Shown here: piece by piece, positions 43,025-61,267 of the stretch
How positions within the stretch are numbered: the stretch's first letter is position 1
Layout: each line of letters starts with the position of its first letter
NCBI GenBank assembly: GCA_003131585.1
Contig: PKVW01000036.1
Location: 1,728 to 65,727, forward strand
Reading direction: 5' to 3'
Length of the DNA stretch: 64,000 nucleotides
Origin: Acidobacteriaceae bacterium
GTDB taxonomy: Bacteria > Acidobacteriota > Terriglobia > Terriglobales > Acidobacteriaceae
The notes under the pieces: model-generated
Databases searched by the model: none
What the model was told of the DNA's origin: nothing
What the model saw: the letters and a program-made list of their open reading frames with translations, nothing else
Program-made: the position numbers and the translations under genes

Positions 43025-43107
43025 GCGACAGCCGGCGGGACGCCGGCGCTACGAAACCTAGGCGCGCTGCGTTCGACGGACAGCCGGGGACGGCTGTCAC
43101 CACGTGA
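43025..43107. repeat. REP-like repeat upstream of portal gene
   Basis: GCGACAGCCGGCGGGACGCC, extending through GGCGCTACG to 43053, matches 58636-58664 in the lipB 3' end at 28 of 29 bases. A CAGCCGGGGACGGCTGTC dyad (about 43081-43098) follows and resembles 4638-4655. Confidence 0.75.
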
Positions 43108-44362: not shown

Positions 44363-44424
44363 TGGCGCTTTGACGGTTGGTGGAGAGGACTTCCGGCAGC
44401 TTTGGTGGTGATGACAAGTACGGA

Positions 44425-44450
44425 GGTCCTTCGCTTCGCTCAGGATGACA
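44425..44450. repeat. GGATGACA-type dispersed repeat
   Basis: GGTCCTTCGCTTCGCTCAGG followed by ATGACA, immediately before the protease-like gene. Copies are also in the right host block. Confidence 0.75.
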
Positions 44451-57209: not shown

Positions 57210-58520
57210 TCACTTCAAATGGACTGCGGCTTCGGTCTCCTTGAAGCCGCCCGTTCCCTTCTTCACCTTCGGCATCCCATACTTCGGCTTGATCTCGTGA
57301 CACCCGTCTTCGCAGAAGACGCCGCCCTCCGCTGATTCCGGCGTCGGCATTGGAGAGTTCACCGCGATCTCGCGCTCGGCTTCGATCACCCGCTCGACTT
57401 CGGCAATCAATTCCGCGTTCTCCTTCGCGGTCAGCCACTTCTTTTCTTTCACCAGATAATTCTCGAAGCGCGCGATCGGGTCGCGCTTCTTCCAGAAGTC
57501 GAACATGGGCTTCGGCACATACGCGGCGGCGTCGTGGATGGCATGGCCTTTCATGCGCATCATTTTCGCTTCGATCATGGTGGGGCCTTCGCCGCGATGG
57601 GCGCGCTCGACGGCTTCGTGTGCGGCGTCATAGACCTGGCAGGCGTCGGTGCCGTCGACGATCACGCCGGGGATGCCGTATCCGATGGCGCGTTCGGCGA
57701 GGTCTTTGCAGCGGTACTGAATTTCTGACGGCGTGGAGTAGGCCCAGAGATTGCTTTCGACGAAAAGCACGAGGCCAAGGTTCTGCACGGCGGCGAAGTT
57801 GATGCCTTCATAGGTAACCCCGGTGGACTGGCCGCCGTCGCCGATGTAGGTCATGACAGCGAGGTTGCGCCCCTGGAGACGCGCGCCGAGTGCGACGCCG
57901 GCCATGACAGGGATGAGATCGCCGAGCATGGAGATAGGCGAGACCATGTTGCGCTTTTCGATGTCGCCGAAGTGCGAGGTGCCGTCGCGGCCGCGGGTGG
58001 GCGAATCGGCCTTGGCCATGTACTGCATCATGGTGTCACTGGCGCGAAAGCCGCGCACCAGCAGCGATCCCTGGTTGCGGATCATGGGCGCGAACCAGTC
58101 GTCTTTGTCGAGAGCGTAGGCGGAGGCGCAGGAGCAGGCTTCCTGGCCGAGTCCGAAGTAGACTCCGCCGACGACCTTGCCCTGCTTGTAAAGGTTTTCG
58201 AGGGCCGTCTCCATTTTGCGGTTGAGCAGCATGTAGCGATAGATCTCGATGCACTGCTTCTTGTCGAGATACTTGGAGTCGCGGATTGGAGGGACCGGAG
58301 CGTTAAGGTTGCCGGTGACTTCGTAGCGGATGTGCTCGGCGCCGTCTTTGTCTTTCTCTATCACTTGACGGACGGTGAGATCGGGATGCTCGAGGCGCGT
58401 ATCAGGGATGGAGTAGGTGCGGAGATCGGTGCGGTCGGGACTGGATCGAGAGGGCCCGTTACGCCCGCGGTTGCCGTTGGAGTTGGAGCTATGCTTTGAG
58501 CTCTTTTTCTTGATCGCCAT
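57210..58520 (-). CDS. 2-oxoacid dehydrogenase E1 alpha subunit
   Basis: 436 residues. An N-terminal low-complexity, basic Ser/Asn/Arg-rich extension of about 30 residues precedes the core. The TPP motif is GDGGQSTGVTYEGINFAAVQN (about 226-246). Other markers: GGVYFGLGQEACSCASAYAL, RNQGSLLVRGF and AKMMRMKGHAIHDAAAYVP. The C-terminus has an extra Cys-containing tail (VFCEDGCHEIKPKYG). It catalyses the decarboxylation step with E1 beta. Substrate (pyruvate or branched-chain) is not decided. Confidence 0.92.
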   Translation of the reverse strand: MAIKKKSSKHSSNSNGNRGRNGPSRSSPDRTDLRTYSIPDTRLEHPDLTVRQVIEKDKDGAEHIRYEVTGNLNAPVPPIRDSKYLDKKQCIEIYRYMLLNRKMETALENLYKQGKVVGGVYFGLGQEACSCASAYALDKDDWFAPMIRNQGSLLVRGFRASDTMMQYMAKADSPTRGRDGTSHFGDIEKRNMVSPISMLGDLIPVMAGVALGARLQGRNLAVMTYIGDGGQSTGVTYEGINFAAVQNLGLVLFVESNLWAYSTPSEIQYRCKDLAERAIGYGIPGVIVDGTDACQVYDAAHEAVERAHRGEGPTMIEAKMMRMKGHAIHDAAAYVPKPMFDFWKKRDPIARFENYLVKEKKWLTAKENAELIAEVERVIEAEREIAVNSPMPTPESAEGGVFCEDGCHEIKPKYGMPKVKKGTGGFKETEAAVHLK

Positions 58521-58635
58521 GGTGGAGGCCTGCGCTGCGAGCGCAATTGATTAATGCTATCGCAGAGTGGCAGATTGGGCTAGGGAGAGTGTCGCAAGCA
58601 TGTTTACCTCCCGTGAGCGATGGCAAGATGCCCTG

Positions 58636-58664
58636 GCGACAGCCGGCGAGACGCCGGCGCTACG
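58636..58664. repeat. REP-like repeat at lipB 3' end
   Basis: 29-bp element that matches 43025-43053 at 28 of 29 bases. The lipB stop codon and last residues fall inside it, so the repeat supplied the 3' end of the gene. Confidence 0.7.
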
Positions 58665-59532
58665 TCCAAGTCGTGCCATCTTCTTTGTGGTGCAGTTCGC
58701 GGAGTTCGGCGGGCGGCTTCATCGGGACACCGACAGTGTGGCCGAGCAGTGCATCGAGCGTCTCAACCCAGAGCATTTGGCTCGAAAACACTACGCCGAA
58801 GTTGCGGGAGATGGATTCGGCAACCGCGTTCAGGTCGAGGGGCTTGCCGAGTTGCTGCTGCATCGAGGTGACCGGCTTTGTCGTGATGCCGCAGGGGATG
58901 ATCAGGTTGAAGTAGCTGATGTCCGTGTTGACGTTGAGGGCGAAGCCGTGCGAGGTAACGAAGCGGGAGATGTGGACTCCGATGGCCGCGATCTTGGCTT
59001 CGGCTGCATGCACAGCACCAGCAGAAAGCAGGTCCCTCGACTTCAGAGAACGATTCTGCGAATCGTTCTCTTCCGCTCGGGATGACAAAGGGTTGGGATT
59101 GGTCCAGACGCCGGTTACACACTGAATGCGTTTCGTCGGGATCGCAAAGTCGGCGCAGGCGCGGATCAATACTTCTTCTAGGCGGCGGACGAATTCGACG
59201 ACGCCGAGCGTCTTGCGATTTCCGTCGGGCGTGGCGAATCCGCGCAGGTCGAAGATGGGATAGCCGACGATCTGGCCGGGGCCGTGGAAGGTGACGTCGC
59301 CGCCACGGTCGCATTCGAAAAGCTCGACGCCGAGTTTCTTGAGGAGTTCAGGCGAGGCGATGACGTTGGCTGCTTTGGCGTTGCGTCCGAGAGTGATGAC
59401 CGGTGTATGTTCGAGTAGGAGGAGAACGTCTCCGATTTTTTCCTCTTTGCGCAGGTCGACGAACTGCTGCTGCAGGCGCAGCCCGGTGGCGTAGTCGACG
59501 GTGCCAAGTTGGACTAGGGAGATCAAATTCAA
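58660..59532 (-). CDS. lipB: Octanoyltransferase with in-frame repeat insertion
   Basis: Transfers octanoyl groups from ACP to lipoyl domains, e.g. the E2 gene product here. 290 residues versus about 210-240 usually. Conserved: RGGDVTFHGPGQIVGYPI (about 77-94), the lysine in AKIAAIGVHISR (Lys180) and the catalytic Cys in PCGI (Cys214). Residues about 145-179 (58996-59100) are not family sequence; they are encoded by a GGATGACA-type repeat with a 12-bp palindrome. The stop codon lies in another repeat. The active site appears intact, so function is probably kept. Confidence 0.9.
   Translation of the reverse strand: MNLISLVQLGTVDYATGLRLQQQFVDLRKEEKIGDVLLLLEHTPVITLGRNAKAANVIASPELLKKLGVELFECDRGGDVTFHGPGQIVGYPIFDLRGFATPDGNRKTLGVVEFVRRLEEVLIRACADFAIPTKRIQCVTGVWTNPNPLSSRAEENDSQNRSLKSRDLLSAGAVHAAEAKIAAIGVHISRFVTSHGFALNVNTDISYFNLIIPCGITTKPVTSMQQQLGKPLDLNAVAESISRNFGVVFSSQMLWVETLDALLGHTVGVPMKPPAELRELHHKEDGTTWT
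58996..59100. repeat. GGATGACA-type repeat inserted in lipB
   Basis: AGAGAACGATTC (59045-59056) and GAATCGTTCTCT (59060-59071) form a perfect 12-bp stem. GCTCGGGATGACA follows at 59076-59088. It keeps the reading frame open and adds about 35 residues between GVWT and KIAAIGV. Confidence 0.75.
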
Positions 59533-59617
59533 ACCGCCCCGGACTTGCGCGGATTCATACGGAGCAAAACGTGAACCATTTCACCACAGAGGTACAGGAG
59601 ACGCGGAGGAAGACATA

Positions 59618-59643
59618 GATCCTTCGCTTTGCTCGGGATGACA
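59618..59643. repeat. GGATGACA-type dispersed repeat
   Basis: GATCCTTCGCTTTGCTCGGG, then ATGACA, in the lpdA-lipB spacer. Full-length end of the family also seen at 44425 and 61209. Confidence 0.75.
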
Positions 59644-59695
59644 GCATTCGGTTTTTTATCCGTGTTCATCTGCGTGAATTCGTGGCCATACAGGT

Positions 59696-61111
59696 TCAGG
59701 CGTTAATCGCGATCCCGTACACGCTGTTTGCCGCGTCCAGCATGGCTTCGGCCAGAGTCGGGTGGGCGTGGATGGTCCACATCAAGTCTTCGACAGTGGC
59801 TTCGAGTTCCATGGCGGCGACGGCTTCGGCGATCAGTTCCGTGGCCTGCGGGCCAATGATGTGCACGCCGAGAATCTCGCCGTAGTCGGCGTCCGACACA
59901 ATCTTGATGAAGCCTTCGTGCTGGCCGACGATGGAGGCGCGCGAGTTCGCGGTGAAAGGGAATTTGCCGACTTTCACGTTGTATCCGGCTTCGCGGGCTC
60001 TCGTTTCAGTGAGGCCGACGCTGCCGATTTCCGGATGGCAATACGTGGCTCCAGGAATGTGTTCAGGGTTGATGGGCTTGCCCGGCTTGCCCGCGATCTT
60101 GGCCACGGCCACAATCGCTTCCATTGCGCCCACATGCGCCAGTTGCGGCGAGCCCAGCACGATGTCGCCGACGGCGTAAACGCCGGGTTCGGCAGTCTGC
60201 ATCCAGGAATCGGTCTTGATGAATTCGCGGTCCGGCTTAATCTTGGTACGCTCCAGGCCGATGTTGTGGGTGCGTGGCTTGCGGCCTACCGCGATCAGAA
60301 TTTTCTCGGCGTCGATCTTCCGTTGCTTCCCGTCGACCGTGATCCTCATGGAAACGCCAGCCTTCGTCTTCTCAACTTTGTCGACCTTCGCGCTGGTGTG
60401 GAAGTTGATGCCACGCTTGCGGAATACGCGCGCCAGTTCCTTGGAGACTTCTTCATCTTCAACGGGAACAAGCCGTGGCAGCATTTCGACGATGGTGACT
60501 TCACAATCGAAAGAGCGATAGATCGACGCGAACTCCACCCCTACGGCTCCCGCGCCAACAATGACGAGCGACTTCGGCATCTCTTTCAGGCTGAGAATCT
60601 CGATGTTGGTAAGAATGCGGTCGTTGGTCTCAAGCCCGGGCAACATGCGAGCTTCCGAGCCAGTGGCGAGAATGACGTTCTTCGCCTTGAGACGGCTGGC
60701 TTTGCCATCGTTCACGACTTCCACCGTGTGCAGACCGTTTTGCGCCGAACCCGTCAGCTTTCCGTAGCCCTTCACGGTCTCAACTTTGTTCTTCTTCATC
60801 AGAAACTCGAGGCCTTTGGCGTGCTTGGCCACGATCCTCGACTTGCGATCCTGGACCGCAGCCCAGTTCAGCTTGCGCGCGTCCACGCCTTCGATGCCAA
60901 ATTCCTTGGCGTCTTTGAGGTGGTCCCAGAGTTCGGCATTGAAGAGCAGAGCTTTGGTCGGAATACAGCCCACGTGAAGGCAGGTGCCGCCGAGGAATCC
61001 ATCTTTTTCGATGAGTGCTGTTTTGAGACCCCACTGGCCCGCTCGGATGGCGGCAGTATAGCCAGCGGGGCCGCTGCCGATGATGGCGACGTCGTAAGTG
61101 GTTTCTGGCAA
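59696..61111 (-). CDS. lpdA: Dihydrolipoyl dehydrogenase (E3)
   Basis: Flavoprotein that reoxidises dihydrolipoamide in 2-oxoacid dehydrogenase complexes. 471 residues. FAD motif GSGPAGYTAAIRAGQ near the N-terminus, redox-active disulfide GGTCLHVGCIPTKAL (about 41-55), NAD motif GAGAVGVEFASIYRSF, and the C-terminal HAHPTLAEA (His/Glu active-site pair). Encoded upstream of lipB and the E1/E2 genes on the same strand. Confidence 0.95.
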   Translation of the reverse strand: MPETTYDVAIIGSGPAGYTAAIRAGQWGLKTALIEKDGFLGGTCLHVGCIPTKALLFNAELWDHLKDAKEFGIEGVDARKLNWAAVQDRKSRIVAKHAKGLEFLMKKNKVETVKGYGKLTGSAQNGLHTVEVVNDGKASRLKAKNVILATGSEARMLPGLETNDRILTNIEILSLKEMPKSLVIVGAGAVGVEFASIYRSFDCEVTIVEMLPRLVPVEDEEVSKELARVFRKRGINFHTSAKVDKVEKTKAGVSMRITVDGKQRKIDAEKILIAVGRKPRTHNIGLERTKIKPDREFIKTDSWMQTAEPGVYAVGDIVLGSPQLAHVGAMEAIVAVAKIAGKPGKPINPEHIPGATYCHPEIGSVGLTETRAREAGYNVKVGKFPFTANSRASIVGQHEGFIKIVSDADYGEILGVHIIGPQATELIAEAVAAMELEATVEDLMWTIHAHPTLAEAMLDAANSVYGIAINA

Positions 61112-61208
61112 AGGAATCGTCCTCAGTAAGAAGAGATGACTAAAGGCAAACGAATGATTCTAGAACAGCGGGGCGGGTGAGACCAAACCGCAGCAGTGGC
61201 GAGGTAGG

Positions 61209-61267
61209 GATCCTTCGACTCCGTAGCAGTCGCTAATCGCGAAGCTGCTGCTGCGCTCAGGATGACA
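61209..61267. repeat. GGATGACA-type dispersed repeat
   Basis: GATCCTTCGACTCCG at the left end, CTCAGGATGACA at the right, with a dyad-rich middle (CGCGAAGC). Between rpsA and lpdA. One of at least five copies in the window. Confidence 0.7.

Follow-up and report, generated by a model that had tools for sequence, protein, structure and literature searches.

Palindromic elements that lie in frame within genes are known above all from Rickettsia, and further cases have been found among the REPs of other bacteria. According to the excerpts of PMC10969869 and PMC3733652 used here, the RPE of Ogata et al. (2000/2002) comprise several families of short palindromes, which occur between and within genes and lie in frame in unrelated genes. 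The portions of PMC3733652 used here further report that REPs supply TAG stop codons and are located in ORFs, including UvrD helicase genes, and that recB carries different REPs at about one site in Xanthomonas campestris and X. oryzae. GTAG repeats are reported in the same portions from Proteobacteria, Cyanobacteria, Chloroflexi and the PVC group, and the repeats given for the acidobacterium K. versatilis are TIR repeats. In-frame palindromic elements, same-site recB REPs and REPs in UvrD genes are thus already in print (same excerpts of PMC3733652 and PMC10969869). The locus described below is unusual in the recurrence of the insertions and in a hypervariable hairpin, the kind itself being known.

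Here we describe lipB of an acidobacterium and of its relatives. The gene lies in a 64,000-nucleotide stretch of DNA, the window, from a genome of 3.93 Mb in 75 contigs (completeness 96%). The host genus, Candidatus Sulfotelmatobacter (Acidobacteriota), consists of uncultured soil bacteria. Sequence comparison leads us to conclude with high confidence that palindromes of REP/RPE-like kind have inserted in frame recurrently, and that the lipB loops, which tolerate them, have repeatedly taken up, exchanged and stacked members of at least four families. Four repeat families, F1 to F4, resemble RPE in being dispersed palindromes, genic as well as intergenic, which lie in frame in conserved genes and are missing from some orthologues. 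This likeness is one of kind and not of Rickettsia sequence families, and RPE membership is not claimed; here the hosts are soil Acidobacteriota, and, depending on the species, one and the same enzyme loop holds members of at least four families. GTAG REPs and their RAYT genes are resembled by F4, F5 and the repeat at the lipB stop, all palindromic and beginning with GTAG, and by one RAYT gene flanked by F2 (GTGG); F1, in contrast, is without a GTAG tag, and the hosts are acidobacterial. With recB, lipB shares one gene site that holds different repeats in related species, but the recB case concerns two species, whereas the present case covers one genus in 34 parsed rows, with two loops and four or more families, and extends to rsmH as another hot gene. 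Among open-licence papers, none of the matches listed described repeats inserted in lipB or in Sulfotelmatobacter, and a text search for the letters of the repeat returned no title about repeats among the matches listed.

The gene, annotated as a predicted lipoyl(octanoyl)transferase, occupies positions 58660..59532 on the minus strand and encodes 290 residues from a TTG start as listed. Its product matches Pfam LplA-B_cat with an E value of 1.2e-41 (143 bits, cut-off 27). A first-pass annotation of the window had stated that the catalytic lysine and cysteine are kept. This holds: Lys180 (codon 58993..58995, minus strand) and Cys214 (codon 58891..58893, minus strand), which we take to be the catalytic residues, are invariant in 32 of 32 aligned rows. 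AlphaFold2 models the core with confidence; residues 150-174 have a pLDDT below 50, as do 25 of the last 26 residues. The top structural matches of the model are 2qhs (TM 0.93 by target length) and 1w66, LipB structures which share the fold, the Lys/Cys pair and the conserved blocks with the window protein. On the Pfam domain, the two residues and the modelled fold we identify the protein as LipB, with octanoyl transfer as its predicted activity.

The same annotation had described an in-frame insertion of about 35 residues that carries a perfect 12-bp stem and sits between two conserved blocks. Stem and position were confirmed. Between GVW and Lys180, the first residue past it, lies a loop of 36 residues (site B, residues 144-179; 58996..59103, minus strand), a stretch that is short in the aligned PDB LipB sequences. 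Within this loop, in frame, we find a 59-base repeat of family F1 (59028..59086, minus strand), with the layout GTCATCCCGAGC-G-hairpin-GTCGAGGGACCT-GC and the peptide (L)SSRAEENDSQNRSLKSRDL(L). The two hairpin arms of 12 nt (59045..59056 and 59060..59071) are perfectly complementary and separated by a 3-nt loop. The in-frame gain is also genuine, but 35 residues is too high a figure: compared with the 5-8-residue loops of 4 of the 34 parsed congeners, the net gain at site B is 28-31 residues, of which F1 accounts for about 20-22. With its own stem, the 59-base repeat occurs a single time in the genome (at most 3 mismatches over 59 bases). The site B insert is modelled as disordered. A second loop, site A (GFATPDGNR, residues 98-106; 59215..59241, minus strand, coordinates derived from the residue numbering of the alignment), is free of repeats in the window and holds F1, F2, F3 or F4 in other congeners. 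An intein or intron was considered and rejected, since the repeat makes up about 20 residues and lipB has one Pfam domain only. Inteins and self-splicing introns are far larger than the F1 repeat. An Rfam search of positions 58400-59800 returned a sole match, far under the gathering score.

A LipB search of 150 relatives gave a match in 130. We read 70 lipB loci, sometimes with two contigs from a single genome. Both sites could be parsed in 58 loci; the remaining 12, partial contigs or motif variants, were dropped. No lipB was matched by this search in 5 of 44 congeners (G008, G013, G030, G031, G043). Two of these genomes, G030 and G043, are more than 90% complete, and another lipoylation route or an assembly gap is conceivable. 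Site B follows GVW, site A follows YPIFDLR, and both hold peptides of different dispersed palindromic families, with F1 present in either orientation. F2 (GTGGGGACAGCCGCC..GGCTGTCC) was detected in 41, F3 (GAAGGGCACGACTTCAGTCGTGCC) in 34 and F4 (GTAGGGGCGGACGC..GTCCGCCC) in 25 of 45 genus genomes, each with a control count of 0; F4 has no copy in the window genome. Both F2 and F4 begin with GTRGGG and could be distant kin. Repeats are also stacked in the loops, up to 92 residues. Site B measures 5-8 residues in 4 of the 34 parsed genus rows and 17-92 in the other 30. Three of the short rows (L045, L059, L082) have a repeat at site A instead, and L057 alone is without both. The lipB insertion pointed out by the first-pass annotation is real, but it is no single event and belongs to a genus-wide hot spot of several families. 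Outside the genus, 24 parsed rows divide into 10 with 5-10 residues at site B and 14 with more, so that the site is variable beyond the genus too; F1 itself is found at site B in one other genus of the family (L038). The family labels overlooked some degenerate copies (L023, L027 and L029, labelled '-').

Two observations concern single assemblies. Loci L054 and L055, from one MAG (JASHTD01), are two lipB contigs with 85% identity over a 461-base overlap; their site A inserts differ (F1 versus F2-like), which points to a mixed bin or two lineages. In L061 the C-terminal half of lipB past GVW is unlike the acidobacterial N-terminal half, perhaps an assembly chimera.

It might be argued that lipB acquired the loop long ago as an extension, inherited vertically and selected at the protein level, and that the likeness of the loop to repeats is secondary. 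F1-type peptides are alike in 14 of 40 rows, one of them in another genus (L038), as an old extension would predict. An insert conserved in all orthologues is, however, not what was found: the loop varies between 5 and 92 residues, non-homologous peptides from different DNA families share the site, orientation varies, and four parsed congeners are short. We further built a codon tree from 40 core sequences after excising both loops (the partial genus rows L049, L050, L052, L053, L055 and L060 were omitted, and L035 was also dropped). On this tree, a single clade was rejected for the F1 carriers without L038 (AU p 1.8e-18) and for the F2 carriers (AU p 9e-57), both groups having been named after the data were seen. 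The same repeats are moreover dispersed elsewhere. We regard a conserved extension as most improbable and reject it on the loop variation and the clade tests.

On the core tree, the minimum number of changes is at least 17 for site B (five states) and at least 13 for site A, numbers which depend on states assigned by eye (those of L016, L023, L027, L029 and L046, and the states at site A). Two pairs of sister species carry different families: L022 (F2) and L024 (F4), with support of 100/98, and L021 (F1) and L034 (F2), with support of 100/97. Inner branches are open on this tree in 19 of 37 cases, and recombination of core genes between species could mimic part of the 17 and 13 changes. Turnover might indeed consist largely of homologous recombination, by which whole lipB loops pass between species after few original insertions. 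The F2 loops of L022 and L034 are alike although the two lie apart on the tree, which suggests interspecies exchange, and many core branches are weak. Nevertheless, several original insertions would still be needed to account for the two sites, the two orientations, the stacking and the number of families (at least four), and L021 and L034, 89% identical over 2.3 kb with differing loops, would demand very short tracts. As the main source of the turnover, loop recombination is in our judgement unlikely, if well worth considering.

Copies of F1 in lipB keep the reading frame. In 19 of 19 lipB copies the length of the F1 variable part is divisible by three, versus 6 of 27 distinct copies elsewhere (Fisher p 4e-8, in a test where related lipB copies are not independent and the 27 others include copies inside other genes). 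An in-frame F1 copy in rsmH (L098) has a variable part of 34 nt; the multiple of three is thus a mark of frame keeping in lipB and no general rule. The strong perfect hairpin within the ORF could also be read in another way, namely that the insert is never part of the protein, either because the ribosome bypasses the hairpin or because it is removed from the RNA or the protein. Mitochondrial byp elements and phage T4 gene 60 are precedents for ribosomal bypass. Yet bypassed or spliced DNA need not stay open, and all lipB F1 copies, in both orientations, stand in open frames with the lengths just given. Several families, moreover, occur in the same loop, and an intein or self-splicing intron would need far more length than the repeat has. 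An untranslated insert therefore appears highly improbable, and ribosomal bypass was rejected on frame keeping. The claim of the first-pass annotation that a mobile repeat becomes protein gains support from the dispersed families, the kept frame and the comparison of loops with and without repeats; that the repeats are mobile and that the insert is translated we infer from sequence.

The gene next to lipB, lpd, shows no net insertion in any full-length row (38 of 38, from 37 genomes, that of the window among them; identity at least 87%), so that loop variation is not a trait of the region as such. For most of the full-length genus rows listed, identity is at least 87% for lpd versus 74-86% for lipB; being more conserved, lpd is the weaker as a control. 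This clean neighbour also speaks against the idea that the long loops are assembly artefacts or that lipB is a decaying pseudogene. Many of the genomes are metagenome-assembled, the contigs of L050 and L055 end within the loop, L061 looks chimeric, and 5 of 44 congeners are without a lipB match. Against this, open frames with a long loop were seen in different genomes, in 30 of the 34 genus rows parsed. In the window genome lipB alone was reported to match PF21948 (LplA/LipB) at the completeness given above, and the lysine and cysteine are invariant in the aligned rows, on which grounds a pseudogene was rejected. The probability that we assign to an artefact or pseudogene is close to nil.

F1 is dispersed well beyond lipB. 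The core pattern GTCATCCYGAGCN{5,35}GARGGAYCT finds 12 copies in the window genome and 0 in the control. A strict F1 pattern (the form with GTCGAGGGACCT; constant ends of 12 nt, free middle) finds 98 copies in 25 of 45 genus genomes and 0 in the reversed control, and lipB holds 9 of the 98 by coordinates. The core pattern, looser than the strict one, is present in 17 of 119 genomes sampled across the phylum, own included. In the window, short forms of F1 lie between lpd and lipB (59617..59642, minus strand) and elsewhere (44424..44449, minus strand), and a diverged long copy (GTCATCCTGAGCGCAGCAGC...GGAGTCGAAGGATCC; 61208-61266, minus strand) upstream of lpd is missed by the strict pattern. F1 begins with GTCATCC and ends with GGACCT and thus bears no GTAG tag. 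Nor does it have the termini of a MITE, its constant ends not being inverted copies of each other. No target-site duplication was visible by eye in 30 flank pairs.

The middle of F1 varies copy by copy in 27 distinct copies outside lipB, whose constant ends are forced by the search pattern. All 20 non-lipB copies with a middle of 34-37 nt fold better than letter shuffles (p <=0.017); with a short middle of 15-23 nt (n=7), 4 of 7 fold no better (p >=0.06). In lipB, 182 of 192 stem cells are paired over 16 of 19 F1 copies, L017 and both forward L056 copies being excluded for other lengths or irregular stems; the shuffle used with this count takes no account of relatedness. Of the 25 deviating stem cells 15 are compensated on both sides and 10 are uncompensated. 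Compensated changes sometimes alter residues, for example AEENDS to AEQDDS in L018. A GAACGATTC stem core is common to most lipB F1 copies across species, which suggests that many of them may descend from one insertion or from local copying. We tentatively raise the possibility, which we hold to be less probable than not, that F1 represents an undescribed kind of hairpin element, with near-invariant ends and an almost free stem that stays mostly self-complementary even within an ORF. The substrate of its spread or repair would in that case be the folded single strand, acted on through recognition of the structure or template-switch correction of the palindrome. Tolerant loops specific to a lineage, those of LipB and RsmH among them, would be landing sites where hairpin families compete and new protein segments are made.

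A different repeat supplies the stop codon of lipB. The palindrome GTAGCGCCGGCGTCTCGCCGGC (58636..58664, minus strand) combines a GTAG tag with a GC-rich palindrome, as in GTAG REPs, and its GTAG at 58663-58660 gives the TAG stop. As the first-pass annotation had noted, 28 of its 29 bases are identical to a copy in the phage-like cluster (43025..43053, minus strand). It can nonetheless be read as an ordinary GTAG-type REP and does not extend the C-terminus: many relatives end in ...TTWA and the window LipB in ...TTWT. It is found at the same position in the relatives L015 and L031, and many other relatives stop at the same residue without a GTAG repeat.

RAYT genes could provide a means of movement for such repeats. 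The window genome has 14 matches to Y1_Tnp, 13 of them above the cut-off. An inexact copy of the stop-codon repeat, running into Ns, lies about 350 bases upstream of the Y1_Tnp match on contig C67. The RAYT gene L229 687-1432 (G000:C28:50686-51431; match C28:50939-51217) has GTGG-type F2 palindromes on both sides and is likely an acidobacterial REPtron. This arrangement makes it plausible that the GTAG/GTGG families move by RAYT. For F1, no clear copy was seen near a RAYT gene in 13 regions of the window genome. Two F1 half-matches near RAYT genes, with 2 mismatches and lacking a second end, we attribute to chance. The RAYT match that scores highest in the genome, L235 711-1031 (G000:C48:711-1031), lies about 700 bases ahead of the window start.

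Repeats of these families are also present in frame in other conserved genes. F1 is found in rsmH (L098 808-1839, residues 93-113), inside the Methyltransf_5 match 20-343, and in a UvrD/PcrA-type helicase gene (L101 490-3060, residues 500-520). In metH (L139), F2 lies inside the MetH activation domain; in a molybdopterin oxidoreductase (L131) it falls between two domains. F3 lies inside the PAD_porph domain of a PAD_porph gene (L163). Copies by dus (L145) and rsmG (L173) are just beyond the best domain match. To obtain these cases, 90 loci (30 for each family) were passed through a filter that required a long open frame on either side of the repeat; 3 of the 30 F1 loci are lipB. Among the candidate frames, 10 of 18 for F1 (3 of the rest being lipB) and 10 of 12 for F2/F3 were searched with Pfam. 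By the open-frame filter, most repeat copies are outside recognisable genes. In RsmH a hot loop lies between DKDPxAL and DWP (L242-L271) and holds inverted F1, VVGRSS-type repeats or a short sequence, depending on the species. By eye, peptides of inverted F1 are present in at least 8 of 30 loci, the query included, and the loop appears to be a second hot spot similar to that of LipB. No rsmH match was reported in the window genome.

We propose the following course of events for recurrent insertion. F1 would have inserted in frame into the lipB loop ahead of the catalytic lysine, probably as single-stranded DNA. The movers would be RAYT transposases for the GTAG/GTGG families and another agent for F1. 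Selection would purge insertions that are out of frame, bear a stop or break the fold, and the survivors would collect in permissive loops. The repeat would be translated into about 20-22 residues that form a floppy, hydrophilic linker, and the insert-bearing lipB would yield a functional enzyme.

The F1 stem, hypervariable and yet mostly self-paired despite a cost in amino acids, separates constraint at the DNA level from constraint at the protein level within one alignment. Filled, short, swapped and stacked states of lipB exist side by side in one genus. They allow questions to be asked about how peptides originate, whether the inserts are neutral and why particular loops are chosen.
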